Source: a virus
Direction: 5' to 3' (one strand)
DNA length: 22,900 bases
Virus record (IMG/VR): IMGVR_UViG_3300009194_000050
Coordinates: 1 to 22,900 of that record
Shown: positions 2,293 through 20,388 of the stretch, in pieces
Layout of the letters: every line of letters starts with the position of its first letter
How positions within the stretch are numbered: the first letter of the stretch is position 1
The notes under the pieces: model-generated
The model's input: only the letters and a program-made list of their open reading frames with translations
Told to the model about the DNA's origin: nothing
The model's database searches: none
Position numbers and translations under genes: made by a program

Positions 2293-2817
2293 ATGTCTGC
2301 AAATATTCTTTCTACCTACTTCCCTGAAGCAGTTAGTATTGTACTATCGAATGCCAATTTTAGCCACGTTGTTAGTGGTGTAGCAGAAGGCACTTTCATC
2401 ACGGTTGCTCGTGAAACCCCGGCCACTCAGTTGGTTATTGGCGGTGATATGAGTGCCATGCGCGTTCGTCGCAAGAACCGTGCTTCGACTGTCACTGTTA
2501 CGCTGATGCAAGGCAGTGACTCTAATGACGTTTTCAGTCAGATTCTGAAAAACGACGAAGACGCTATGAATAACGACTGGCTGTTCAGCTTGACTATTCG
2601 AGATGGATCGGGTCGTACAGTGATGTTTAGCCCGCAAGCATATATCGCCAACATGCCAGATATTTCGTTTGGCACTGAAGGTGATAATCGTGATTGGGTT
2701 ATTCAGTGCATTGACCTTGACGCCCATGTTGGTGGGGGTGGTCTTCTTGACGCTGCTACTGTGAGCACCCTTGATGATGTAGGTTACGAAGTTCCAGAGA
2801 GCTGGATTAGTGCCTAA
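2293..2817 (+). CDS. Tail tube protein, DUF3277-like, copy 1
   Basis: This 174-residue protein lies behind AAGGAG (2281-2286). It has 'S-G-V-A-E-G-T-F-I-T-V-A-R' near the N-terminus, 'T-V-T-V-T-L-M-Q-G-S-D-S-N-D-V-F' in the middle, then 'L-T-I-R-D-G-S-G-R-T' and 'A-Y-I-A-N-M-P-D'. This pattern belongs to the DUF3277 tube subunits found just after DUF3383 sheath genes. It is the closest of the three tandem copies to the standard family and probably forms the main tube that DNA passes through. A strong hairpin follows the stop (2824-2843). Confidence 0.8.
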   Translation: MSANILSTYFPEAVSIVLSNANFSHVVSGVAEGTFITVARETPATQLVIGGDMSAMRVRRKNRASTVTVTLMQGSDSNDVFSQILKNDEDAMNNDWLFSLTIRDGSGRTVMFSPQAYIANMPDISFGTEGDNRDWVIQCIDLDAHVGGGGLLDAATVSTLDDVGYEVPESWISA

Positions 2818-2823
2818 AGATAG

Positions 2824-2843
2824 GGAGGGGCACTCGCCCCTCC
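2824..2843 (+). terminator. 8-bp hairpin after the tail tube gene
   Basis: GGAGGGGC (2824-2831) and GCCCCTCC (2836-2843) form a perfect GC-rich 8-bp stem with a 4-base loop. Only a weak T run follows (AATTTCC), and the ribosome site of the next gene lies 12 bases on. It is more likely a leaky terminator or a 3' mRNA stabiliser that raises tube output over the downstream genes than a full stop. Confidence 0.55.
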
Positions 2844-2865
2844 AATTTCCTACAGAGGTGGAAAG

Positions 2866-3351
2866 TTGGAACTTTGGACATATTGCCCAGAAGAAGTGAC
2901 AATTCTCGTTATGGGCGCACCCCTTGAGGGATTAGTTGACGGAACGTTCATCTCTGTCCAAAGACAATCTCCTGTCTTTACGTCTAAAGCGACAGCAGAT
3001 GGAAGAATTACAAGGGTTTACAGCGCAGCAGAGATTTGGGAGATTCAGTTCACAATGATGAACTCCAGCCCCTCAAACTATTTGCTTAATAGTCTGGTGT
3101 TGCTGGACAAGGCCACCAAGCGTGGAAAGTTTCCCCTTATGATTAAAGATGGAACAGGGGGTACGTTGATTTTTTCTACATCGACATGGGTAGAAGAGCT
3201 TCCTGCTGTAACATTCAATACAGACGTTAGTGAAAGAGTTTGGACTCTTAAGAGTGCTAACGCAGTTGTTACCATTGCCGGTAGTGGAGAATCTTCAGCA
3301 GTGTCCGATGTTCTAAACACCATTGCAGGCTCTATTCCCGGTCTATTGTGA
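2866..3351 (+). CDS. Tail tube-like protein, DUF3277-like, copy 2
   Basis: This 161-residue protein starts at TTG 2866, behind GAGGTG (2855-2860). It aligns along its length with the preceding tube protein: 'P-E-E-V-T-I-L-V', 'L-V-D-G-T-F-I-S-V-Q-R', 'F-T-M-M-N-S-S-P-S-N-Y', 'M-I-K-D-G-T-G-G-T-L-I-F' and 'E-E-L-P-A-V-T-F'. The last 20 or so residues are a small hydrophobic tail that copy 1 lacks (SDVLNTIAGSIPGLL). It may be a tube initiator, tube cap or minor tube subunit; the sequence does not decide. Divergence from copy 1 is large, so this is not a recent duplication. Confidence 0.65.
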   Translation: MELWTYCPEEVTILVMGAPLEGLVDGTFISVQRQSPVFTSKATADGRITRVYSAAEIWEIQFTMMNSSPSNYLLNSLVLLDKATKRGKFPLMIKDGTGGTLIFSTSTWVEELPAVTFNTDVSERVWTLKSANAVVTIAGSGESSAVSDVLNTIAGSIPGLL

Positions 3352-3359
3352 GGTAATTT

Positions 3360-3860
3360 ATGGCAGGGGATATTTTAACGTATAGTCCCGATCTAGTACA
3401 GCTTGTCTTTGGGGGCTATACAGTTTCAGGGTGGAATCGAATTGCTATACAGCGAAACTCTGAATTTGTTAAACAGATTCGAGGTATCAGAGGCAAGCAC
3501 GCTAAAGAGGTTAGTCGAGACACGTCTTGCACAATACTTCTAACCCTCGCCCAGTCTAGTGAAACTAATACAGTTCTAGGGAAGATTCTTGAGTTTGAAG
3601 AGTCTACTAAAGGTAAGGTTAGGCTAGAAATAATGTTGAAAGACGGCGGTGGAGAAAGTGTTTTCGCATCTGTTGAGTGCTACATTGGTGGCTGGCCCTC
3701 AGTTCTGTACAGCAGTGAAATCAATGACATAGAGTGGAAGTTTATTTGTGACTCTTCTAAGTGGAATTTGAAGGGAAGCGAAGCAAATAAAAACGCACTG
3801 GTTGATATGGTTAGCGGCGCTCTTGGGAGTGTTGGTAACACAATCAGTGGTTTATTCTGA
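3360..3860 (+). CDS. Tail tube-like protein, DUF3277-like, copy 3
   Basis: This 166-residue protein starts 8 bases after copy 2, behind GTGAGGT (3349-3355). It keeps the family skeleton: 'S-P-D-L-V-Q-L-V-F', 'W-N-R-I-A-I-Q-R', 'L-T-L-A-Q-S-S-E-T-N', 'L-K-D-G-G-G-E-S-V-F' and 'C-Y-I-G-G-W-P'. Like copy 2 it ends in a hydrophobic, glycine-rich tail (GALGSVGNTISGLF). Its role could be a specialised tube ring at the baseplate or neck end. The shared tail suggests that copies 2 and 3 act together, but that is inference. Confidence 0.65.
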   Translation: MAGDILTYSPDLVQLVFGGYTVSGWNRIAIQRNSEFVKQIRGIRGKHAKEVSRDTSCTILLTLAQSSETNTVLGKILEFEESTKGKVRLEIMLKDGGGESVFASVECYIGGWPSVLYSSEINDIEWKFICDSSKWNLKGSEANKNALVDMVSGALGSVGNTISGLF

Positions 3861-3880
3861 ACAAGTTTTGGAGGAATGAC

Positions 3881-4192
3881 ATGACTAAAATTAATAAAGA
3901 TATCAAAGAAATTGAGATTGATGGTGAGAACTATATTCTCAAGCTAATGCCCGCTATGGATGGACTTGACTTCATTGCTCAGATGGGTAAAGAGGGTATG
4001 AACTCTCGTATGATTTTTAACGCGGTGAGCAAGTGTGTCCAGCGCGGCAGTACCGGATTTACAGAGAAGACTTTTAACGAGCACTTCAAGGGGCGGATTT
4101 CCCACCTCATGAGGCTTGTTGATGCTGTGGTGGATTTTAACTTCCCCGATATGAAAGAGGGAAACGAGCAAAGCGATACAGAAGACCTGTAA
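3881..4192 (+). CDS. Tail assembly chaperone, short form (TAC)
   Basis: This is a 103-residue protein starting at ATG 3881 behind GGAGG (3870-3874). It is a small acidic-tailed protein ('E-I-E-I-D-G-E-N-Y-I-L-K-L-M-P-A-M-D-G-L') of the type encoded before tape-measure genes. These are the lambda gpG and Mu gp41 counterparts, which coat the tape measure during tail assembly. The last 12 codons overlap a -1 frame that stays open to 4446. The heptamer GGGAAAC at 4159-4165 would divert part of the ribosomes into it. This entry is the normal termination product, ending at TAA 4190-4192. Confidence 0.75.
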   Translation: MTKINKDIKEIEIDGENYILKLMPAMDGLDFIAQMGKEGMNSRMIFNAVSKCVQRGSTGFTEKTFNEHFKGRISHLMRLVDAVVDFNFPDMKEGNEQSDTEDL

Positions 4193-4446
4193 AGGCTGTA
4201 TCGCAGAAAACCCAGAATCCCCGGATGTTAAAAATTGAAGAGAATTTTTCCGGGGATTATGATGTGTTGAGGGTTATATTCTCTACCAGCAATCCTATTG
4301 AGACTTTATACAATCTAAAGCACAAATATTCAATAAGGCTTTACCAAGAATATTTAGAGTATTTGGATGTACACGAAGAGCTTAAAGCTATTGCTAAATC
4401 TGAGGCCGAGAATGAGAAAAGTAGCAAATCGACTAACCGAAGGTGA
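3881..4446 (+). CDS. Tail assembly chaperone, -1 frameshift form (gpGT-like)
   Basis: This is a predicted 188-residue fusion. The 103-residue frame is read up to GGA-AAC (4160-4165), the ribosome slips back one base on G-GGA-AAC, and reading continues from CGA 4165 to the stop at 4444-4446. The -1 frame is open from 4141 to 4446. The extension is basic at first (RAKRYRRPVKAV), then has a helical domain ('V-I-F-S-T-S-N-P-I-E-T-L', 'L-Y-Q-E-Y-L-E-Y-L-D-V'). The in-frame ATG 4225 has no Shine-Dalgarno sequence in front, so separate expression of the 73-residue part is unlikely. Long and short chaperone forms made in a fixed ratio are standard for long-tailed phages. Confidence 0.75.
4159..4204 (+). 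promoter_or_regulatory. -1 programmed ribosomal frameshift signal
   Basis: The slippery heptamer G-GGA-AAC (4159-4165) is in the correct phase for the X-XXY-YYZ rule. After a 7-base spacer, GCGATACAG (4173-4181) pairs perfectly with CTGTATCGC (4196-4204), a 9-bp stem with a 14-base loop. The zero-frame stop codon lies in that loop. Heptamer, spacer length and stem all match the usual design of phage tail-chaperone frameshift sites. Confidence 0.85.
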
Positions 4447-4454
4447 GGTAGAGG

Positions 4455-5387
4455 ATGGCAGGACCTTATGAAAACCTAGAAGTCGTTGCGAGGTGGAAAA
4501 GCGGTCGTACCTTCTTTGTTTGTGTGAAGTGCCATATATGCGCAGATGATGCCGAGTTAAACGGTGATGCGTTGTATGAAATGCGTGAACATAAATATCT
4601 TACAGGACAAAAACCTTGCGAGTGCTCTCGTGCCCCAAGAAGGAGCAAAGAACAGTATGAAGTTTTACTCAGAAGGGCGCTAGAATTAGATGGTTTTTCT
4701 TTTGTAGGGTGGACAAGCAAAGAGTACACCACAAGCGGAAGGGTTTTGATTAAATGCCCCTCTCATGGAGTCCTTGAGCCTAAGTCTGTAAATGATGTCC
4801 TTACGGGAAGGCGGTGTATTGAGTGTAGACGAGAATTAGTTGCCGAGATAAGAACGAGGAGCGACTACGGTCTGAACAAACAATATATAGAGGACTCTGT
4901 ATATGCTGAAGGGTCCCGTATTGAGAGGGACAAGTCTTGCTCAAAAAGCTTTATCTTCACTTGCGGAAGTTGTGGTGAAATTTGCTATAACCTAACAGAC
5001 GGAAGTTTTCGAAAAAGAACCATACCGTGTTCTTGTAACAGCCTTAGTAATAGAAGATATTCCTATATTTTTGAAATATATGACAATGGAAGTCCAATAG
5101 CCCTAAAGTTTGGTGTAACTTCAAATCCTTGGGCAAGAATCCATAAGCAAAGAAAAGAAAGCGGTCTTATAGTTAAGTTTGTCGGTATCTGGAAATACGA
5201 GAACTACAACCAGTGTTTATTTGCAGAAAAAGAAGTTTCCAAACAAGTTGTTACCGGAACCTTGAACAAACAGCAGTACCCAGACGGCTACACAGAAACC
5301 ACAGATGTAAAAAATCTAAGCACAATATGTGAAATATTTGAAACTTGTGGTGGGGTCAGGTTACGACCCAAAGGAGGAAAACAATGA
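4455..5387 (+). CDS. Zinc-ribbon protein with GIY-YIG-like C-terminus, probable free-standing homing endonuclease
   Basis: This 310-residue protein starts at ATG 4455 behind a purine-rich GAGGTAGAGG. Three cysteine clusters suggest tandem zinc ribbons: C23/C26/C29 with C55/C57; C101-P-x-x-H104 with C121/C124; and C170/C173 with C192/C194. The middle unit, 'I-K-C-P-S-H-G', resembles the CapR/DUF723 type of DNA-binding ribbon seen in phage endonucleases. The C-terminal 100 residues have 'Y-S-Y-I-F-E-I-Y' (202-209), 'K-F-G-V-T-S-N-P-W-A-R-I' (218-229) and a glutamate-rich helix near E258, an order that fits a divergent GIY-YIG nuclease. It separates chaperone and tape measure, which are normally adjacent, and its stop overlaps the tape-measure ATG. 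That argues for a selfish insertion. The nuclease call is moderate: the GIY and YIG motifs are degenerate. Confidence 0.6.
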   Translation: MAGPYENLEVVARWKSGRTFFVCVKCHICADDAELNGDALYEMREHKYLTGQKPCECSRAPRRSKEQYEVLLRRALELDGFSFVGWTSKEYTTSGRVLIKCPSHGVLEPKSVNDVLTGRRCIECRRELVAEIRTRSDYGLNKQYIEDSVYAEGSRIERDKSCSKSFIFTCGSCGEICYNLTDGSFRKRTIPCSCNSLSNRRYSYIFEIYDNGSPIALKFGVTSNPWARIHKQRKESGLIVKFVGIWKYENYNQCLFAEKEVSKQVVTGTLNKQQYPDGYTETTDVKNLSTICEIFETCGGVRLRPKGGKQ

Positions 5388-6426
5388 GTGGCCCGATTTC
5401 ATCTTTTTACGCAGACATTGGCGTAAACATCTCCCAATCCCAGATAAGAAAAGTTGATAACTTCTTTGATAGGATTGAATCTAAATTAAAATCTCTTTCT
5501 AAGGGTTTCAATTTACAACCAAATATCAAACTGAAACTGAACAGCGGAGAGGTTTCATCGTTAAAGCAAAAAATCAAGGCTGCAACGAAAGACTTGTCTG
5601 TAGATGTTCCGGTATCTTTGAAGCCTAAGGTTAACAAGAAAAGCTTTTCCTCTGTACTTAACAGACAAAGTTTGAAGGCAACGTCTGCTACACTAGGGGT
5701 TGCTGTAAATAAAGCACTTGGGACACTCACTCCTGTAATTAACGCTAGAGTAAACTCAACAATTCTCCAAGCTAGTGTTAATACTGCTTTACGTGGTTTG
5801 GGTAGTGGCTTTGAGATTAGTCCAAAAATTTCTAAAGCTGCGATTACTTCAATGAGGGACGAGCTTAGGGTTGGTTTGTCAAACATCTTCATTAACCCAA
5901 TCCTTAGTCAAAGCTACCTAAATCAAGCGAGGCAATCTCAGCGACCGCAAAGACAACCAACTGAACGCAATCAGTTAGCTGATAAGTCTGGCCGCAATTT
6001 CATGTATGGCGGCGGTACAGCAGGTGCGCTGGCGCGTTATGGGTTTGGTAGTGTGCCGTTTATTGGCGGAGCTTATGGTCTTAGTACGCTAAATACTGCA
6101 AACCAAGAAGCGATTTCTACAAGGCTGACAACTGAAGCGGTTCTTCAGTCTCAAGGTTATTCATCTGAACAAGGCCAAGCAATGTTCCGATGGCTAAGAA
6201 ACCTTGGAAATGAAAACGGTTTTAGTTACATGGACGCAGCCCCCGATTTCAACCAGTTCCTTTCTAACGCTCTCGGTGCTGGTGTCTCTCTTGGTGGTAG
6301 TCAAGATATTTTCCGTGGCTTTAGTGAATACCAAACAGCGATGGGTGTAACTCCTGCACGTCGCAAGTTGGTTAACAACGCCCTTAGTCAGATGCTCGGT
6401 AAAGGCACTATCAATATGGAAGAGCT
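5384..6426 (+). CDS. Tape-measure protein, exon 1
   Basis: The start is ATG 5384, behind a strong AAGGAGG (5371-5377) that lies inside the upstream gene; the in-frame TTG 5345 lacks this. Exon 1 gives the N-terminal 347 residues and two bases of the next codon. It begins with a long helical, basic region ('K-V-D-N-F-F-D-R-I-E-S-K-L'), then 'G-G-G-T-A-G-A-L-A-R-Y-G-F-G' and 'N-A-L-S-Q-M-L-G-K-G-T-I-N-M-E-E-L', typical of the region before the 'LPGA' box of tape-measure proteins. Reading on gives a premature TAG at 6446. The 5' splice site is placed after T6426 because GAGCT (6422-6426) pairs with the intron guide GGCTC (6435-6439) and ends in the expected U.G wobble. The protein sets tail length and is ejected through the tube. 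Confidence 0.8.
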
Positions 6427-7531
6427 TGAATTTAGGCTCGCTGCATAGAAATATGCAGAAAAATAAATCTCTTTAATTGCCGGAAACACTCGTTTAGGTG
6501 TTGACTACCGCCATATTGTAGTAATACAATAGTAGGCTCCATGCGTAATGGCATGGGTATGGTAAAAACGTCAACAATAGAGTCAATCGGCAGCTAAATA
6601 TCTTAAAAGCTCCCCAAGTCAGTAAGGAGAAATCAATGCAAAACGAAAAGAAAATAATTTCTGGCGTACTAGTAGCCCGCTCAAACCGCTGGCCTAACTA
6701 CGGAGTCAGCAAATGTGGACGCGCTTTCAGGTGGGACACTGAAAAAGAGATGAAAGTCGGAATGCTTACAGCAGGTGACTACCCGGTTTTCAGAGTTAGT
6801 CACCAATGTAAAGCGTCTTGGGCTTGTATCCACTATGCAATAGTTGAATGCTGGGTGAGTAATCCTAACCCCGAACTTTTTGTTGAAGTTAATCACAAAA
6901 ATGGGGATAAGATGGATTATTCTTTTGATAACTTGGAGTGGTCTACCAAATCCCAAAATCAACGACATGCGCTGGACACTGGCTTACGGAGTCGTGGTAG
7001 TGATCTGTGGAACGCCGGGTTAACGGACGAACTAGTTCATATAATTTGCCAAGAACTTCAAGACGGTTGCTTCCCGAAAGATTTAGCAAAGAAACATGGC
7101 GTGTCGGAGCATATTGTCAGAAAACTTAGGGATGGGAGTACATACTTCCACATTAGAAGTTTATATCCGATAGATCATAAGTATAAAGTAGACTTTTCTG
7201 AAAGTACAGTAAGATGGGTCTGTGAGAGAATTGTTGAAGGTTACGCAGATAAGAAAATCTCCGATATTGCAACAAATAAAAATCTCACAACGATAGAGGT
7301 TAAACGAATCCGTAACAAAATTCGTTATCGCACAATAAGTGACGATTACTTTTAAGATAGAAGCTCAACGACTATCCCGAAAGGGAGTACACCACAAGCT
7401 ATTGGTGGTGGAAATAGGAGAAACCTAAACAAGTAATGTTGTAGGTTAAGATATAGTCTCATCTGCACAGAGATGTGCAGCAGTTCATAAGAGAACGGGA
7501 AGAGTAGTAGCGAACTCTTCCGAAGATAATG
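6427..7531 (+). ncRNA. Group I intron 1 (td-like, IA2-type) in the tape-measure gene
   Basis: The core elements all lie in order. P1 is 6422-6426 with 6435-6439, including a U.G at the splice site. P2 is the hairpin 6441-6447/6452-6458 with a GAAA loop. P3 is 6468-6473 with 7416-7421. P4 joins TGCCG (in the P box near 6478) with CGGCA (Q box near 6588). P6 is AGC/GCT, and P6a is TATCTT 6599-6604 with AAGATA 7354-7359. P7 is GACTA 7370-7374 with TAGTC 7454-7458, P8 is 7423-7446, and P9 is 7463-7469/7474-7480 with a GAGA loop. P9.1 is 7498-7505/7514-7521. The last base is G7531. P10 (TAGA 7532-7535 with TTTA 6431-6434) supports the 3' splice site. The HNH gene sits in the P6a loop, as in the phage T4 td intron. 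Confidence 0.88.
6636..7355 (+). CDS. Intron 1-encoded HNH homing endonuclease
   Basis: This 239-residue protein starts behind AAGGAG (6623-6628). The HNH_3-type core runs from H66 ('I-H-Y-A-I-V-E-C-W') through 'E-V-N-H-K-N-G-D' (N86, H87) to 'F-D-N-L-E-W-S-T' (N99, E101) and H111. The C-terminal half has two helix-turn-helix-like segments (about 148-167 and 207-228), expected to bind the target DNA. It would cut intronless tape-measure genes at the insertion site so that the intron is copied in. The TAA stop overlaps the 3' strand of P6a (7354-7359), so gene end and ribozyme are fitted together. The product is made from an RNA that must also fold and splice, so its expression is probably low or early. 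Confidence 0.85.
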   Translation: MQNEKKIISGVLVARSNRWPNYGVSKCGRAFRWDTEKEMKVGMLTAGDYPVFRVSHQCKASWACIHYAIVECWVSNPNPELFVEVNHKNGDKMDYSFDNLEWSTKSQNQRHALDTGLRSRGSDLWNAGLTDELVHIICQELQDGCFPKDLAKKHGVSEHIVRKLRDGSTYFHIRSLYPIDHKYKVDFSESTVRWVCERIVEGYADKKISDIATNKNLTTIEVKRIRNKIRYRTISDDYF

Positions 7532-7562
7532 TAGAAGGCAGATGGCAGAAAGTATGCCGGGT
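7532..7562 (+). CDS. Tape-measure protein, 31-nt micro-exon 2
   Basis: Between the two introns lie only 31 coding bases. Joined to the 'CT' left by exon 1 they read Leu-Arg-Arg-Gln-Met-Ala-Glu-Ser-Met-Pro-Gly. Together with its flanks this gives E-E-L-R-R-Q-M-A-E-S-M-P-G-T-M-D-I-F-A, the familiar 'EELRRQLxEALPGAxxIFA' box of tape-measure proteins. Without it, exons 1 and 3 do not join into that motif. The left boundary follows G7531 and pairs in P10 with intron 1. The right boundary ends in T7562, which makes the U.G of intron 2's P1. The exon exists only if both introns splice out separately. Confidence 0.8.
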
Positions 7563-8554
7563 TAACATAAGTAGCCCCTATCTGAAGAAATTTGGATAGC
7601 AAACCTATCTAATTGCGGGAAAGCCCTTAGAGCTTGATTTTACTTAAAAGTGTGGTACACTTGTATTTTAAGTAACAAGATTGGGTGATCCGCAGCGAAG
7701 GCCCGATCTTCTCTAACCAAGGAGGTCAAAATGTTTTATATAGTCCCAAATTATGAGTTTGCTCAAGTAAATAGTGATTCTCAAATAAAGAGTACCTTAA
7801 CCGGCACGATCTACACACCATATACAGATAAGGACGGATATCTCAGGTGTAACGTGTGGGACGGGGAGAAGCTGCGAGGTATTTATGTACATCGCGCAGT
7901 AGCTCTAGTCTTTGTAGAAAACCCTTACGGTAAGCCGATTGTGAACCACATCGACTCTAACCGGCAGAATAACACTATTGAAAATCTGGAGTGGGTTACA
8001 CCAAAAGAGAACTCTCAACACGGAGTTCTTGCTGGTAACTTCCCTATAGGGGAAGAAGCATATCACTCGATTTACAGCACAGAGCAAATACATGAGGTTT
8101 GCAAACTCCTATCCTTGAATAAGAGTGCGGAGTTCATTTACAGAAATACTGGCGTCAGTAAGAGCGTCATAAACTCTGTAAAAATTCGCAGAACCTGGAA
8201 AGAGATTTCAAAAGACTATGTTCTCCCAGAAGTAAAACCAAAGATTACAGACGAGGTAGCAGAGAAAATTCTCTATCTCATCGAAAAAGATTTTAGCATA
8301 TCCGAGATAGTCAAGATTATTGACCATCCCCGTGTCAATCGACACACGGTAGCTAATATCAAGAATGGGAAAACTTTTAAACATTTAAGGGCAACGTTCA
8401 ACGATCAGCCGTAAGGCGTACACCCAAGTGGGTGGAAATGGTAGGCACCTAAACAAGTAATGTTGTAGGTGGTGATATGATCTGGTCTATATGGAAACAT
8501 ATAGCAGCTTGAATAAAGCGGGGGAGGACTAACGACCCTCCTTGAACATAAACG
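7563..8554 (+). ncRNA. Group I intron 2 (td-like, IA2-type) in the tape-measure gene
   Basis: P1 pairs GGGT (7559-7562) and TA (7563-7564) with TAGCCC (7572-7577), including the U.G at T7562. P2 is 7578-7583/7594-7599. P3 is CCTATC 7604-7609 with GGTAGG 8440-8445. P4 joins TGCGG (P box near 7614) with CCGCA 7690-7694. P6a is GCCC 7701-7704 with GGGC 8389-8392. P7 is GATCA 8403-8407 with TGATC 8478-8482. P7.1 is the CACCC/GGGTG hairpin near 8420-8435, P8 is 8447-8470, and P9 is CTATATG/CATATAG with a GAAA loop near 8487-8504. P3, P4 and P7 differ in base from intron 1 but keep pairing. The 3' end is set at G8554 from likeness to the end of intron 1 and from the protein motif; G8560 is possible. 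Confidence 0.85.
7731..8414 (+). CDS. Intron 2-encoded HNH homing endonuclease
   Basis: This 227-residue protein starts behind AAGGAGG (7721-7727). HNH_3 core: 'Y-V-H-R-A-V-A' (H54), 'I-V-N-H-I-D-S-N' (N72, H73), 'I-E-N-L-E-W-V-T' (N85, E87) and H97. The N-terminal part ('Y-T-D-K-D-G-Y-L-R-C-N-V-W-D-G') is the usual strand pair before this fold. Two helix-turn-helix-like segments follow (about 132-151 and 189-213). It shares domain layout with the intron 1 enzyme but little sequence, so the two probably recognise different sites. Its last codons (AAC GAT CAG CCG) run through the 5' strand of P7 and the 3' strand of P6a, so its C-terminus is constrained by ribozyme folding. Confidence 0.85.
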   Translation: MFYIVPNYEFAQVNSDSQIKSTLTGTIYTPYTDKDGYLRCNVWDGEKLRGIYVHRAVALVFVENPYGKPIVNHIDSNRQNNTIENLEWVTPKENSQHGVLAGNFPIGEEAYHSIYSTEQIHEVCKLLSLNKSAEFIYRNTGVSKSVINSVKIRRTWKEISKDYVLPEVKPKITDEVAEKILYLIEKDFSISEIVKIIDHPRVNRHTVANIKNGKTFKHLRATFNDQP

Positions 8555-9967
8555 ACAATGGATATTTTTGCCCAAGCTTATGCTCAAATGACCAAGAGTG
8601 GCAAGAGCGGACAAGCGGCACTGTCTGATCTTTACGATGCTATCCCTACAGGGAAAGTAAGGGCTGCTGAAATCTTACCATTAGTCTCAGAAATAATGCG
8701 AGAAAGAGCAGAGCCGAAGCTTGGAGTTCTGCGAAAATCTTCTATTGCAGAGCAGGCTAGGGTTCGGAACACCATTTCTGATTTGGTAAACACGTTCTCA
8801 ACTTCAGGCGGTGAAGAGGGTTTTTCAAGATTCTTCAGGTCAGCGAATTACGCACTAACAGGCTTAACCCCAGTGGTTGAATCTTTAGGACAGGCGTTTA
8901 ATTGGCTGTCTAAGGCTTTAGAAGGGCCAATGCTCCTCATGGGAGATATGGGACAATTGTTTGAGAGGACCAAAGATAGGGTTGAGCAGTTGAACCCCGC
9001 TATACTTGAGTTGAGTGCTCTTGGTTTGGCTCTGACAACCAAATGGGGCCGTGTTGGTGCAATGTTCTCTATGATTTATCTGGTGATGGAGGATATTGTC
9101 GGGTGGGTCAACGGAAGAGATAGCGCCATTGGCTTGGTAATGGACAAAATGCAAGAGTTTGTCTCCTTTGATAAGGATATCATGGCTATGTCTATGTCTG
9201 TTCTCACTCTGGCTGCTGCTTTTAAAATTCTCAGCACATCCATGTCCCTCATTCCTGATATATTTAATCAGCGTGGTAAAAAAGGTAAAACACCAGATAT
9301 CGATCTTCCAGATGTGGGTAAGTCCCAGAAGGGCGGGGCTATTGGTAAGTGGTTGATTGGTTTAGGGCTTCCAGCAACAATTATGGGGGCAACTGCTTGG
9401 GGGCTTGATGAGATTGGCTTCTTTGATAAGATGTCAAACATCAAAGAAAACATGCAGCCAATCGTAGATGACATCACAAATCCAAAATCTATCTTGTTCG
9501 ACAGGATGTCAATAGGGGATGCGAAAAAGCAGTATCCGGGCGGTCTTGGGGTGCTGTGGAATAACTCTGATGAGTTCTTGGAGAGCGAGAAGTATAGGGT
9601 ATACGCACAAGAACAAGCACAGAAGTTTGACCAAACTGTAGCAGCCATTCAGCAGATGCAATCCCTTGGCTACTCAGAAGATAAGATTAAATCGGCTCTT
9701 GGTAGCACATCATTTAATCTTCCCTATGATTTTGAATATGCTGGGAATGTTTATAATCCGAGCAATGTACATCAAGCCGTACAAGACGCATCTACAGTAA
9801 ATAATAATTCGAACACAACAATCACCAATCAGTTTGATATTAAGATTGATGGTGTGATTGATCCTGCTGGACTTGAATCTGTGTTTGAAGAACAAGTAAT
9901 GCCCCGTGTTGAGTCTTGGTGGACTAATGAGCTGGGAAATGTCAATATGTCTTTTGGGAGTAAATAA
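8555..9967 (+). CDS. Tape-measure protein, exon 3
   Basis: Exon 3 adds 470 residues and the TAA at 9965-9967. It opens with T-M-D-I-F-A-Q-A-Y-A-Q-M directly after the 'MPG' of the micro-exon. An ORF finder would start at ATG 8558, but no ribosome site precedes it (CGACAATGG), and it is the splice product that makes sense. Later parts include helical segments, hydrophobic stretches around 'W-L-I-G-L-G-L-P-A-T-I-M-G-A', and a beta-rich end ('T-T-I-T-N-Q-F-D-I-K-I-D-G-V-I-D') seen in many tape-measure C-termini. The full spliced protein is 828 residues. Its stop overlaps the next start by one base. Confidence 0.82.
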   Translation, partial: TMDIFAQAYAQMTKSGKSGQAALSDLYDAIPTGKVRAAEILPLVSEIMRERAEPKLGVLRKSSIAEQARVRNTISDLVNTFSTSGGEEGFSRFFRSANYALTGLTPVVESLGQAFNWLSKALEGPMLLMGDMGQLFERTKDRVEQLNPAILELSALGLALTTKWGRVGAMFSMIYLVMEDIVGWVNGRDSAIGLVMDKMQEFVSFDKDIMAMSMSVLTLAAAFKILSTSMSLIPDIFNQRGKKGKTPDIDLPDVGKSQKGGAIGKWLIGLGLPATIMGATAWGLDEIGFFDKMSNIKENMQPIVDDITNPKSILFDRMSIGDAKKQYPGGLGVLWNNSDEFLESEKYRVYAQEQAQKFDQTVAAIQQMQSLGYSEDKIKSALGSTSFNLPYDFEYAGNVYNPSNVHQAVQDASTVNNNSNTTITNQFDIKIDGVIDPAGLESVFEEQVMPRVESWWTNELGNVNMSFGSK

Positions 9968-16944: not shown

Positions 16945-18459
16945 ATGGCTATTTCTTTGCGTTCTGCTCGTTCTCTTGTAGTCGGGGATGTTAGTTTGGA
17001 GGGTGATGTTATTGTCTTCCAAGGCAGCACGAACACCTACACCATCACAGACTTCAACAGCTTTAGTGAGTACTCAGTTAGCTCCGACTACGGCACTGCT
17101 TCTGTGGCTGGTGATGTGATTACTCTCGTTGTTCCAACCCCTGCTACACAGAATCAAATCAAGCTCACCGTGATTAAAGACAGCAAGTCTTCTGTGTTTA
17201 CTGTAGCTGTTGGTGCGTCTGTTGTAAACACCCCTTCTATTACCTCTCCCGTCAATGGTGCAACAGGGGTTGCTCTTCAACCGACTATTGAGGCATCAGC
17301 ATTCAGTACCACTCCTCCGGCTCAAGGTGTACACCAAAGCTCGCAATGGCAGGTTGCAACAAGTGCTGATTTCTTGAATATTGCTTACGACAGTGGTGTT
17401 GATACTGTAAACAAAACATCAATCACCGTTCCATTACCTTTGTCGATGAACACTCAGCACTGGGTACGAGTGCGGTATACAAGCTCTACAATCGGTGCAT
17501 CTGAGTGGAGCAGTGTAGTGAGTTTCACCACTACAAACCAATACGTTGTTCAACCAACGGTTTCTGTAACTGATGGTCCAAGCAATGTCGGTGAAACCCC
17601 CACTATTTCTACATCAGCATTTTCTGTCTTTGGTGGTAGCGATACTCACGCCTCTACTGACTGGCAGATTGTAAAAGTTTCTGACAGTAGTGTTGTCTGG
17701 CAATCCCTTGGTAATACCAGTAACAAAACATCTATCGTAGTTCCTGCTGGTGTGTTGCTTGAATCTCAGGATTATGTAGCTCGTGCAAGGCACAATGGGA
17801 CCACTGTTGGGTCTTCTGCATGGGGGGAGTATTCCTTCACAACCAAAGCTGAGTTTTTCACCTTTGACCCAAGCTCTGTAGGTCTGCCTTATGGTGGTGG
17901 TTATTACGCTGGTAAGTTCATAACAGGTGGAGTCACTTACGCACTCATTGTAGCCCCTAAAGCTCAAGGTGGGGAGTATAGTAATCTTGCTTGGAAGACT
18001 TCGAATACTACCACAGCCGGAACAACCAGTATTAATGATGGATTGGCGAATACTAATGCAATGATTGCAGCAGGGGCATCCGCACACCCCGCAGCCAACT
18101 TCTGCAACAACCTTAATATCAACGGCTATGATGACTGGTATCTTCCTGCTAAAGGTGAGTTGGAGATTCTATATCGTTATCTGAAACCAACCACGGATGC
18201 TAACTCTACAAGTTCTGGTGCCAACACAAGCTCTGTACCAACAACGGGTAATTACACATCTGGAAGTCCTGCCCAGACAAGTGCTACTATCTTCAGGACT
18301 GGTAACAGCGAAGCCTTTACTTCAAACTACTACTGGTCCAGTACAGAGTATTCGTCTACGTATGGTTGGCTACAGAGCTTCAGCGATGGCAACCAGACCT
18401 ACACCACCAAGACGAACAGCGCGCTCTATGTTCGTGGAGTACGCCGTATTGCAATATGA
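16945..18459 (+). CDS. Tail fibre/adhesin with Ig-like repeats and DUF1566 C-type-lectin-like variable domain
   Basis: This is a 504-residue protein behind AGAGGA (16929-16934). Residues 1-88 look like an Ig-type domain. Two repeats of about 100 residues follow, each with 'W-Q-(V/I)', 'N-K-T-S-I-(T/V)-V-P' and 'S-x-W-(S/G)-x-x-x-S-F-T-T', as in Fn3/Ig-like fibre repeats. From about 300 on comes a DUF1566-type fold: 'G-Y-D-D-W-Y-L-P-A-K-G-E-L-E-I-L-Y' (394-410), 'Y-Y-W-S-S-T-E-Y-S-S-T-Y-G-W' (463-476) and the ending 'Y-V-R-G-V-R-R-I-A-I'. This C-terminal layout is that of DGR-diversified receptor-binding proteins. An Avd-like gene and a template-repeat fragment lie downstream. It is the probable host-recognition protein, with its binding face set by the last 43 residues. 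Confidence 0.8.
   Translation: MAISLRSARSLVVGDVSLEGDVIVFQGSTNTYTITDFNSFSEYSVSSDYGTASVAGDVITLVVPTPATQNQIKLTVIKDSKSSVFTVAVGASVVNTPSITSPVNGATGVALQPTIEASAFSTTPPAQGVHQSSQWQVATSADFLNIAYDSGVDTVNKTSITVPLPLSMNTQHWVRVRYTSSTIGASEWSSVVSFTTTNQYVVQPTVSVTDGPSNVGETPTISTSAFSVFGGSDTHASTDWQIVKVSDSSVVWQSLGNTSNKTSIVVPAGVLLESQDYVARARHNGTTVGSSAWGEYSFTTKAEFFTFDPSSVGLPYGGGYYAGKFITGGVTYALIVAPKAQGGEYSNLAWKTSNTTTAGTTSINDGLANTNAMIAAGASAHPAANFCNNLNINGYDDWYLPAKGELEILYRYLKPTTDANSTSSGANTSSVPTTGNYTSGSPAQTSATIFRTGNSEAFTSNYYWSSTEYSSTYGWLQSFSDGNQTYTTKTNSALYVRGVRRIAI
18328..18456 (+). other. Probable DGR variable region (VR) at the 3' end of the fibre gene
   Basis: These are the last 43 codons of the fibre gene, the ligand-binding part of a DUF1566/C-lectin fold. 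Bases 18350-18380 match 19136-19166 at 26 of 31 positions. All five differences are at adenines in the downstream copy (A to T, C, T, G, T at 18361, 18370, 18371, 18377, 18379). Adenine-specific change between template and target is the signature of DGR mutagenesis. The exact VR limits are inferred. Confidence 0.65.
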
Positions 18460-18474
18460 TGTGCTTTGCACATC
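18458..18474 (+). terminator. Hairpin at the fibre stop codon (terminator and/or DGR target hairpin)
   Basis: GATGTGC (18458-18464) and GCACATC (18468-18474) form a perfect 7-bp stem with a TTT loop, starting inside the stop codon. A T-rich stretch follows. In known DGRs a hairpin/cruciform just after the variable region promotes target recognition, so either role, or both, is possible. Confidence 0.5.
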
Positions 18475-18491
18475 TTTGCAATTCTTGTTTT

Positions 18492-18504
18492 GAGCCGAAG
18501 GCTC
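18492..18504 (+). other. Small GC hairpin downstream of VR
   Basis: GAGCC (18492-18496) pairs with GGCTC (18500-18504) around a GAA loop. It is the middle of three hairpins between the fibre and Avd-like genes. It could be part of the DGR target structure or of a compound terminator. Confidence 0.4.
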
Positions 18505-18508
18505 CTTT

Positions 18509-18545
18509 GCACCATCCGTCTGCTTCGGCAGCGGTGGTGCTTCTT
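18509..18545 (+). terminator. Strong terminator hairpin with TTCG loop
   Basis: GCACCA, CCG and CTGC (from 18509) pair with GCAG, CGG and TGGTGC (to 18540), closed by a TTCG tetraloop with two bulged T. The 13-bp arm is followed by TTCTT. This is the best rho-independent terminator in the window and should end most of the structural-gene transcript after the fibre gene. Confidence 0.7.
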
Positions 18546-18615
18546 AAAACTGTCTTACTAATCTTACTCTACGATGTGTATGGGTAGAAAGGTAAGCTTA
18601 TAAAGGATATAGATA

Positions 18616-18981
18616 GTGGCACGGAAAGCAAATGACTTAGACATATATAAAGACGCATACTCTCTTTTACAAGTGATTTCCCATGCTGTGAAGAATATGA
18701 GGAAAGATTTCAAACACTTGTTAGGTAAAGAGAGCATCCAGCAAGGAGTTGCTATTCTCAGGTGTATTAATCAGATCAACAGCACCAAAGATACACACTC
18801 CAAGTTGAGTCTTCTTGATAGCCTACACGAGCAAGTACTAATTCTTCAACTCAATCTGAGGCTTTGTAAAGACCTCCACCTGATTGACGAATCTAAGTTT
18901 GCTAGGGCTGTAGAGTTAGGCGTGTCTGTAGAGTCTCAGTGTTTGAAGTGGAACACTTATGTCCAACGTAGCAAGAGATAG
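18616..18981 (+). CDS. avd: Avd-like four-helix-bundle protein (DGR accessory variability determinant)
   Basis: This 121-residue basic protein starts at GTG 18616, behind AAAGGA (18602-18607). The whole chain is predicted helical: 'Y-K-D-A-Y-S-L-L-Q-V-I', 'M-R-K-D-F-K-H-L-L-G', then 'L-L-D-S-L-H-E-Q-V-L-I-L-Q-L-N-L-R-L-C-K-D-L-H-L-I' and 'K-F-A-R-A-V-E-L'. The order (aromatic first helix, 'F-x-x-x-L-G', leucine-rich third helix, 'R-L-x-K-D-L-x-L-I') is that of Avd/bAvd proteins, which form a barrel that binds the DGR reverse transcriptase and template RNA. Position right after a DUF1566 fibre gene is the classic DGR order. No reverse transcriptase follows in this window. Related bundles occur outside DGRs, so the name depends on the context. 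Confidence 0.75.
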   Translation: MARKANDLDIYKDAYSLLQVISHAVKNMRKDFKHLLGKESIQQGVAILRCINQINSTKDTHSKLSLLDSLHEQVLILQLNLRLCKDLHLIDESKFARAVELGVSVESQCLKWNTYVQRSKR

Positions 18982-18986
18982 TGAGA

Positions 18987-19003
18987 GGCACCTAAATGGT
19001 GCC
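18987..19003 (+). terminator. Hairpin after the Avd-like gene
   Basis: GGCACC (18987-18992) pairs with GGTGCC (18998-19003) around TAAAT, 5 bases after the stop. No good T tract follows. It may be a weak terminator or the 5' edge of a structured RNA. A second stem, CCTACAC (19088-19094) with GTGTAGG (19107-19113), lies further on in the same gene-free stretch. Confidence 0.4.
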
Positions 19004-19135
19004 CTCCAATCCAAATGTTTTAGGTGTCTACCCTAACAGAATGTTGTTACGGATATGAACTTCAACTAATTTTGGAAGTTTAGTTTTCCTACACTTGCCT
19101 TTGGTTGTGTAGGGTGACGTGTAATTAGACACAAC

Positions 19136-19166
19136 ATTCGTCTACGAATGGTTGGAAACAGAACAT
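19136..19166 (+). repeat. Probable DGR template-repeat (TR) remnant
   Basis: This 31-base stretch in a non-coding gap matches the fibre VR (18350-18380) at 26 positions; the five mismatches are all A here. Read in the VR frame it gives AAT, AAA and AAC codons where the VR has TAT, CTA and AGC, the A-rich codon choice expected of a TR. Similarity stops on both sides, so only about a quarter of a normal TR is present. It looks truncated; a second, complete TR outside the window is possible. Confidence 0.6.
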
Positions 19167-19172
19167 TTCTGC

Positions 19173-19200
19173 TTTACATGTGTAGTTATTGGTGTATACT
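19173..19200 (+). promoter_or_regulatory. Sigma70-like promoter for the HNH-AP2 gene
   Basis: TTTACA (19173-19178) and TATACT (19195-19200) are separated by 16 bases, each one base off consensus. The start codon of the endonuclease gene lies 34 bases after the -10. It begins directly after the TR remnant, so the element may have arrived with the endonuclease gene. Confidence 0.6.
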
Positions 19201-19233
19201 ACCAGTACCAAAAACATAAATAGGAGGTACGTT

Positions 19234-19767
19234 GTGAAATATACACCACTCCCGGATAAGGAATTTCTCCACGAGTGTTTCAGTTACGATAAGGTAACTG
19301 GCGATGTAACATGGAGAGTACGCCCACGCCATCACTTTAGTGGTAATGCTGCATGGAAGACGTTCAATACGAGGAATGCAGGAAGTCGTGTTGGAACAAG
19401 AAACTCCCAAGGATACGAGAATGTAAGATTTACTTATAAGGGGGCTGCTAAAAGTTACCTCCTGCACAGATTGATCTGGTGTATGGAGAATGAGGACCCT
19501 TGCGACTACCAAATTGATCACATAAATCACAACAGGTCAGATAACAGTGTCTGCAATTTACGCCTCGCTACCAGTGCTCAGAATTTAGGCAACATGACGG
19601 TCAAGCGGGATGGGCTACAGGGCGCATTCTATCTCAAAGATAGGGGTAAATGGCGTGCGCAGATCAAGATCAACTATACTTCAGTCTTCTTGGGCATATT
19701 TGATACAGAAGAGGAAGCTCACGCTGCATATATGAAAGCTAAGAAAGAAAGAAATTCTCAATTTTGA
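19234..19767 (+). CDS. Free-standing HNH endonuclease with AP2 domain
   Basis: This is a 177-residue protein. The start is GTG 19234 behind TAGGAGGT (19221-19228); the in-frame GTG 15 codons upstream lies in the promoter region and is not used. N-terminal 'L-F/L-x-Y-D-x-x-T-G-D-V-T-W' type strand, 'L-L-H-R-L-I-W' (H78), 'I-D-H-I-N-H-N-R-S-D-N' (D95, H96, H99) and 'C-N-L-R-L-A-T' (N108) make the HNH_3 core. Residues about 127-170 ('G-A-F-Y', 'K-W-R-A-Q-I-K', 'L-G-I-F-D-T-E-E-E-A-H-A-A-Y') form an AP2 DNA-binding domain. This HNH-AP2 form is a known phage homing endonuclease. It sits where a DGR reverse transcriptase would be expected and has its own promoter. Confidence 0.85.
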   Translation: MKYTPLPDKEFLHECFSYDKVTGDVTWRVRPRHHFSGNAAWKTFNTRNAGSRVGTRNSQGYENVRFTYKGAAKSYLLHRLIWCMENEDPCDYQIDHINHNRSDNSVCNLRLATSAQNLGNMTVKRDGLQGAFYLKDRGKWRAQIKINYTSVFLGIFDTEEEAHAAYMKAKKERNSQF

Positions 19768-19779
19768 AGGACTACTTAA

Positions 19780-20388
19780 ATGAAATACATCCAATTCACA
19801 TACGTTGACTTTGCTACGCGCATCCCTGTCTCTAAAGAGCCTGCTAAACGTGGCCCCGATATTCCTGAAGGAATCACCCCAACATTTGCAGTTGAGTCAT
19901 CTTTTGGACAAGTTCCTGTCCTTTACGGTATTGCGGAGGATGAGTTTGAACCAGAAGAGTGGATGGTGGAAGTGACGGAAGGTGACTTCTATGCCGCATT
20001 CAAGCAAGAACTTAAAGAACGTGCCAGCAAGAAACGTAAGATGCTTGAACAAGGTGGTGTGGTGGTTGGTGGTAATACCATCCAAACAACTGTTGAAGAC
20101 CAGAACCGTGTAAGCAATATGGTGGCTGGCTTGAATATCACCCCAGAGGCTACGCAAGTGGACTTTGAGTACGCTCCGGGGCAGTGGACTGTAATTACTC
20201 GTGAAGAAGCCACTGCTATTGGTCAAGCTGTATTCAACCATGTGCAATTGTGTTTCACTTGGTGTAAAGATGTTCACGCTAAGGTAGATGCTATTCTCAC
20301 TCTGGAAGATGCTCTCCCTGTTGTAGAAGAGATTGCTTTTGCAAGCTCCGACACCCTATACCCGGCAACTGAAACCGAAGAAGCATAA
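19780..20388 (+). CDS. DUF4376-containing tail-fibre-associated protein
   Basis: This 202-residue protein starts 12 bases after the HNH gene, behind GAAGGA. The first 65 residues are variable with many Glu. From about 75 on, 'K-E-R-A-S-K-K-R-K-M-L-E-Q-G-G-V-V-V-G-G-N-T-I', 'T-x-x-E-D-Q-N-R-V' and 'W-T-V-I-T-R-E-E-A-T-A-I-G-Q-A-V-F-N-H-V-Q' form the DUF4376 pattern. Proteins with this domain are commonly encoded next to phage tail fibres and may act in fibre assembly or attachment, but the exact role is unknown. The next gene overlaps by one base. Confidence 0.7.
   Translation: MKYIQFTYVDFATRIPVSKEPAKRGPDIPEGITPTFAVESSFGQVPVLYGIAEDEFEPEEWMVEVTEGDFYAAFKQELKERASKKRKMLEQGGVVVGGNTIQTTVEDQNRVSNMVAGLNITPEATQVDFEYAPGQWTVITREEATAIGQAVFNHVQLCFTWCKDVHAKVDAILTLEDALPVVEEIAFASSDTLYPATETEEA

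Follow-up and report, generated by a model that had tools for sequence, protein, structure and literature searches.

Adenine-patterned variation in a phage tail fibre next to the remnants of a diversity-generating retroelement

Introduction

In the diversity-generating retroelement (DGR) of the Bordetella phage BPP-1 (avd-TR-brt, with mtd as target) the spacer that follows the template repeat (TR) on its 3′ side brings in bRT-Avd and primes the synthesis of cDNA at IMH* (PMC12875486), and this core works in trans on phage lacking the core (PMC3240598). The Pseudomonas phage LPPA56 (OR188718; L035), with a 42-kb genome containing a tyrosine recombinase, also has a complete core; its two-target DGR is found in genes annotated only as hypothetical proteins. 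Loss of the reverse transcriptase (RT) itself is not new. In Treponema denticola isolates targets are left over after the DGR has been lost (PMC4891356), and in many genomes of the crAss-like Epsilonunovirus phages the RT is fragmented or absent while the proteins bearing the variable repeat (VR) are conserved (PMC11054128).

We have analyzed a stretch of virus DNA of 22,900 nucleotides (IMG/VR record IMGVR_UViG_3300009194_000050, positions 1 to 22,900), which is called the window throughout. It shares with BPP-1 a VR at the 3′ end of a fibre gene, adenine-only differences between VR and template, an avd-like gene next to the target and an inverted repeat directly after the VR. It differs from BPP-1 in that there is no RT, the template comprises 29 nt without IMH* and spacer, an HNH endonuclease gene stands in the RT position and the loop behind the VR is TTT and not GRNA. 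In LPPA56 two Lcl_C-type targets, Avd, TR and RT follow in this order, and the target domain is 40% identical to that of the window; the difference lies in the completeness of its core. With the leftovers of Treponema and Epsilonunovirus the locus has in common adenine-biased VR targets or conserved VR-bearing proteins while the RT or the whole core is missing. Unlike these, however, the window keeps avd, a leader and a TR fragment with an HNH gene in place of the RT, and many separate phage genomes have one type of template in common although they do not contain it. A further comparison is offered by the record L117 (IMGVR_UViG_3300046313_000122), which has a fibre domain 56% identical to that of the window, the same gene order and a TR with TGGAAACAGAAC, but contains a complete TR and an RT gene that abuts the chaperone gene.

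Results

Two close relatives of the window were available. L001 (record L007, 9,185 bases) is 92% identical to the window over 8 kb and shares its TR segment, avd and HNH gene, whereas the VR differs. L011 (89,992 bases) has a fibre with a third VR which is followed directly by the DUF4376 gene, without avd, template or HNH gene. No nucleotide relatives of the window were found among 50,697 phage records, and for the baseplate protein the nearest matches are Pseudomonas phages of roughly 90-100 kb, at only 42-46% identity.

The DGR target is a tail-fibre gene on the plus strand (16945..18459; phrog_4245, 1.3e-35). The DUF1566/C-lectin layout which a preliminary description of this DNA had claimed for the C-terminus was confirmed by Pfam, since residues 347-500 match the C-type-lectin-like Lcl_C domain (PF07603, 2.1e-11). 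The VR (18337..18429, plus strand) shows adenine-only mismatches to the template in three phages, namely the window, L001 and L011, and is hypervariable as expected of a DGR target: between the window and L001 a 30-codon VR stretch contains 10 nonsynonymous and 1 synonymous codons, compared with 17 and 48 in the preceding domain. Downstream of it the 3′ end of the VR (18430..18456, plus strand) is without any difference among these three phages, while the upstream gene diverges by 13-27%; by analogy with BPP-1 this invariant segment may have an IMH-like role. Directly 3′ of the VR there is an inverted repeat of 7 bp with a 3-nt loop (18458..18474) resembling DGR target hairpins (compare PMC3240598). 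It reads GATGTGC-TTT-GCACATC in the window and GATGTGT-TTT-ACACATC in L001 and L011, so the closing pair covaries from C-G to T-A in the relatives. Among the RT-less relatives with adenine-patterned VRs, three (L171, L127 and L133) have another 3′ end (AGARTACCCGTATAACAA..) and the hairpin of the rest is absent.

The template-repeat fragment lies at 19136..19164 on the plus strand and covers 18350-18378 of the VR; 29 nt are secure, and 31 had been reported at first. The longer segment, 19136-19166, is ATTCGTCTACGAATGGTTGGAAACAGAACAT and its counterpart 18350-18380 is ATTCGTCTACGTATGGTTGGCTACAGAGCTT. The two are identical at 26 of 31 positions, and the mismatches at template positions 12, 21, 22, 28 and 30 all fall on A, which bears out the earlier claim of a 31-base match with all five mismatches at template adenines. 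A recount also gave the same 11 adenines and a chance of p=0.0027, in agreement with the earlier estimate of about 0.003. Throughout the window this is the sole pair of 29-mers which agrees at 25 or more positions and in which only adenines of one copy are mismatched, and an equivalent pair did not occur in any of 120 Markov-shuffled windows, which rules out a chance repeat. When the 29-nt core is compared with the three VRs of the window, L001 and L011, 8 of 29 columns vary and all lie within the 10 adenine columns (p=1e-5, the columns not being fully independent owing to shared ancestry). The VR thus differs from the fragment at template adenines only, also in L001, which has the same segment and another VR, and in L011, which is without the segment; the adenine-biased variation that was to be expected among relatives is present. 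The pattern suggests that the copying behind it was mutagenic retrohoming.

The secure core extends up to ...AAC. Here the intact templates of relatives go on with TTC.. and the fragment reads ATTTCTG..; at position 30 each of the three fibres has T. Within the window the match stops at 19164-19166, short of a TR 3′ end with IMH*, and this single copy of 29-31 nt is the only one found. Before it departs, the fragment reads TGGAAACAGAAC, which is identical in the TRs of L117 and of a further relative, L128. Moreover, none of the three VRs contains the AAA codon of the fragment, which speaks independently for its nature as a template. The template fragment is also nearly palindromic between 19129 and 19162 (CATTCGTCTACGAATG), and an RNA hairpin is predicted there.

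We then compared the silent sites. Synonymous differences were counted among codons with the same amino acid, in the VR plus tail and in the domain before the VR. Between the window and L001 there is 1 difference in 28 codons of VR plus tail versus 48 in 146 of the preceding domain (p=0.0009), and between the window and L011 1 in 26 versus 51 in 145 (p=0.0008). When the comparison is restricted to the 60 codons immediately preceding the VR, p rises to 0.05 and 0.008, respectively. For the pair L001/L011, whose members are closer to each other in this domain, no homogenisation is seen (3/27 versus 29/152, p=0.42). As silent differences would disappear when sequences are copied from a common template, the homogenised VR fits recent writing, and these sites indicate that the fibre VR has been rewritten more recently than the surrounding gene diverged and is not an old fossil. 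The earlier suggestion that decay of the cassette leaves a fixed adhesin is too simple in this respect.

The silent sites bear on two other explanations. According to the first the DGR has long been dead and the fibre is a fixed adhesin under ordinary mutation. The core is plainly broken, and both the leftover Treponema targets (PMC4891356) and the fragmented or absent RT of crAss-like phages (PMC11054128) are precedents; with a VR homogenised relative to the same gene upstream and no non-A difference in 29 columns of three phages, however, such an old decay is already disfavoured and appears very improbable to us. According to the second, ordinary homologous recombination swaps VR segments between phages and so spreads variants written elsewhere. 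Phage fibres recombine often and the remnant block itself has moved between relatives (see below), but each VR compared shows the adenine-only pattern clearly, and such a pattern cannot arise from recombination alone; furthermore the homogenised stretch begins at the VR, whereas recombination would give scattered ends. We consider this explanation unlikely.

One observation concerns variation within a population. L010, a relative from another sample, ends at ...TCGTCTACG, corresponding to window position 18360, immediately ahead of the first adenine that varies within the fragment. Assemblers halt where a population branches, and this end point hints at standing VR variation in the population of L010.

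Downstream of the fibre gene an intact avd-like gene (18616..18981, plus strand) with a GTG start encodes a protein of 121 residues. The profile search places it in the Avd group as proposed earlier, with PHROG 3206 ('Avd protein of DGR') at E=3.4e-19; Avd is also its best NCBIfam match (NF033474, 3.1e-8) and bAvd its best match in Pfam, both below the curated cut-offs. The AlphaFold model (pLDDT 90.6) is a four-helix bundle which superimposes on Bordetella Avd (4dwl) with a VIA-align Z of 15.9 and an rmsd of 1.6 over 109 residues, and on the Avd of a DGR ribonucleoprotein (8ub8) with a Z of 16.1, while unrelated bundles reach about 14 and less. However, the S23-family protein 2rld and Xcc0516 (2gsc) fit the model equally well or better than Avd, so that the fold alone is not decisive; a fold search with the model likewise returned Avd and S23 proteins. 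Taking profile and predicted fold together (Z about 16 for Avd), the protein is Avd-like. A sequence search of the PDB with the Avd profile gave designed proteins only, and a plasmid sequence search found no Avd in plasmids.

Between avd and the template fragment a structured RNA leader is predicted (18979..19135, plus strand) from folding and covariation: the region 18979-19240 folds at z=-3.9, and the pairing of one leader hairpin survives a two-sided change between the window and L001. In LPPA56 and L117 the corresponding region does not fold clearly better than shuffled sequences, and we therefore do not claim an RNA leader as a general DGR feature.

No RT was found in the window, and hence no DGR-type RT linked to the TR. 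Together with the VR/TR match and the PHROG 3206 assignment this absence supports the reading of the preliminary description, in which a DGR target is accompanied by an Avd gene and a shortened template while the window has no RT. In the position held by the RT in relatives, as judged from the gene order of L117, there is a gene (19234..19767, plus strand) for an HNH_3 endonuclease (PF13392, 3.7e-11; phrog_99, 3.1e-50) with a DNA-binding AP2 module, the latter below its cut-off. It is of homing type and homing is putative. From its position this gene would have displaced the RT. A scan with the HNH protein had an already known relative as its only match. The cassette site is flanked on the other side by a fibre-associated, chaperone-like DUF4376 gene (19780..20388, plus strand; PF14301, 1.2e-14). 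In L011 this gene comes immediately after the fibre, and in L118, a member of the wider fibre family, a gene in the corresponding place does the same. As the RT, the priming spacer and the IMH*-bearing 3′ end of the template are all missing, the local core, by comparison with BPP-1, should be dead and unable to diversify the fibre.

A group I intron was considered for the gap between avd and the HNH gene and rejected, since Rfam has no match there and matches the tape-measure region only. In that region (5345-9967) the tape-measure gene is split. A group I intron-like RNA is found at 7214-7480 (E=2.8e-9, just under the gathering score), and weaker ones at 6417-6813, 7554-7768 and 8248-8504; the ORFs 6636-7355 and 7731-8414 between the tape-measure parts look like HNH homing endonucleases by eye. 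Apparently there are several introns in this one tape-measure gene.

The identity between the window and L001 is unevenly distributed. It is 78-87% across most of the second half of the fibre gene, 98-100% over most of 18,500-19,800 (about 1.3 kb; one 100-base bin in the leader has 88%) and 77-96% after the remnant block. The contrast between the block and the 78-90% of its surroundings points to a recent movement of the remnant block between lineages, and homing by the HNH endonuclease would explain its spread.

To see what a complete cassette looks like at such a site we turned to Avd loci in IMG/VR. The RT lies just downstream of avd in 59 of 64 loci, which makes the state of the window an exception. 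Among the other five, one is the record of L001, the contig of L106 ends too early, and in L107 and L108 the match to Avd is confined to its first half. These last two have several short VR-type lectin genes with no RT found nearby and are further broken DGRs. In three relatives of the fibre family (L117, L128 and L152) a complete DGR adjoins the fibre, and the differences between TR and VR are almost only at adenines; the TRs of L117 and L128 read TGGAAACAGAACTTCAACAATGG. The order in L117 is fibre, avd, TR, RT and chaperone, then small genes and a lysozyme, and the order of the window (fibre, avd, TR fragment, HNH, DUF4376) is that of L117 with HNH in place of the RT. An RT at this same place in a related phage, which the preliminary description had led one to expect, is thus found in L117.

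The complete TR and RT might also lie elsewhere in the same phage genome, the TR next to avd being a dead duplicate. The window is a 22.9-kb fragment record, and gut prophages offer examples of VRs far away from the RT cassette (PMC12629997). Against this stand the usual adjacency of RT and avd just described and the relative L011, in whose 89,992 bases there is no RT, no Avd and no second VR copy. Its bases 2-121 recur at 89,874-89,992 (98.3%), and with this 120-bp end overlap the record looks complete. We give this arrangement little credence.

L117 and L118 show the cassette site in its occupied and empty states. The empty site of L118 reads ...AAAAGGCTTTTATGTACATACAACTAAC, and the occupied site of L117 reads ...AAAAGGCTTTTATG-avd...RT...AAAATTATGTACATACAACTAAC. 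The boundaries of the cassette coincide exactly with two start codons (ATG-to-ATG), and TTATG stands at either end.

Scanning with a profile of the fibre domain gave 494 relatives, of which 80 were kept, and 35 records were examined whole. RT and Avd are both absent in 32 of these 35. With the TR of L117, the one template used, we compared 16 VRs of equal length without an adjacent RT; fibres outside this cluster match it poorly. Mismatches at its adenines amount to 156/320 at codon position 1 and 139/320 at position 2, versus 6/272, 35/272 and 34/528 at non-adenines of codon positions 1, 2 and 3. Taken singly, the VR of L121 mismatches the L117 TR at 17 of 44 A and at 0 of 67 other positions, and that of L118 at 20 of 44 A and 2 of 67 non-A (p=4e-8), while the gene before the L118 VR differs from L117 at 57 of 338 non-A sites.

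Several of these records seem to be whole genomes. In L118 (63,739 bases), L137 (54,721) and L125 (38,336) the first 127 bases are repeated exactly at the end, as is usual for circular assemblies; in L115 and L159 the end repeats are imperfect. None of the five contains an RT, an Avd or a second template copy. In the 6.3-kb record of L012 there are two adjoining fibre genes (2498-5608) with three Lcl_C-type ends in total and a chaperone-like gene of its own after each fibre gene; no RT is found in this record.

Two explanations present themselves: frequent loss of the DGR, with a fast turnover of the cassette, or diversification of the RT-less phages in trans. Given how many genomes are without a cassette, loss after writing is not the most economical explanation for every one of them. 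In the fibre-domain tree the RT needs only three changes, and L117 is nested among RT-less fibres, in a part which is poorly resolved; cassette turnover may be too fast for parsimony. In the second case the VR of the window would still be diversified by a core (avd, TR, RT) that resides in the host, in a prophage or in a DGR+ phage infecting the same cell. Besides the tree, the absence of RT and Avd from most of the family, including L011 and the five other end-overlapping records, speaks for such a supply, as do the RT-less VRs whose mismatches to the L117 TR concentrate at A without a second TR copy in the end-repeat records. The hairpin behind the VR has been kept with a compensatory change, and BPP-1 without avd, TR and brt was diversified from a plasmid (PMC3240598). 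A donor for the group of the window was, however, not found: pattern scans of IMG/VR returned known VRs, the remnant and unrelated matches, and a scan of GTDB species genomes a single actinobacterial match (L030), whose context is without a DGR and which we judge to be chance. We found no report of natural trans supply between phages in the open-access literature. Furthermore, the remnant core in the window argues that a cassette was once present in cis, and rapid gain and loss explains the same data. For the family as a whole trans supply has to be taken seriously; on balance, and for the window too, we doubt it.

Discussion

Our preferred reading, which we hold to be somewhat more probable than not, is that the window contains the target end of a DGR together with its wreck, and that the cassette was once in cis and has been lost recently. 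The fibre VR would have been written by adenine-mutagenic copying from a full-length template ...GGTTGGAAACAGAAC..., the pattern being seen in three phages. The avd-TR-RT cassette would have been flanked by the fibre gene and the DUF4376 gene, in the manner of L117. Presumably the HNH endonuclease gene then took the place of the RT and of the 3′ part of the template, so that avd, the RNA leader and 29 template nucleotides were left over, and this remnant block spread between close relatives. Since cassettes come and go precisely at the junction of fibre and chaperone genes, we regard the VR as a target that is still maintained and that was probably written by a cassette lost only recently.

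DGR surveys normally start from the RT. In the whole fibre family the VRs bear the marks of a DGR while most genomes hold neither RT nor template, so that most of these targets would escape an RT-based survey. L117 and L118 with their occupied and empty sites, together with the apparently circular RT-less genomes, make it testable whether these targets are frozen or written in trans. If the latter is true, host-range diversification of a phage can be supplied by its neighbours, and the DGR core, sitting on another replicon of the same cell and writing into phages which contain only the target with VR, 3′ end and hairpin, would be a shared resource of the phage population.
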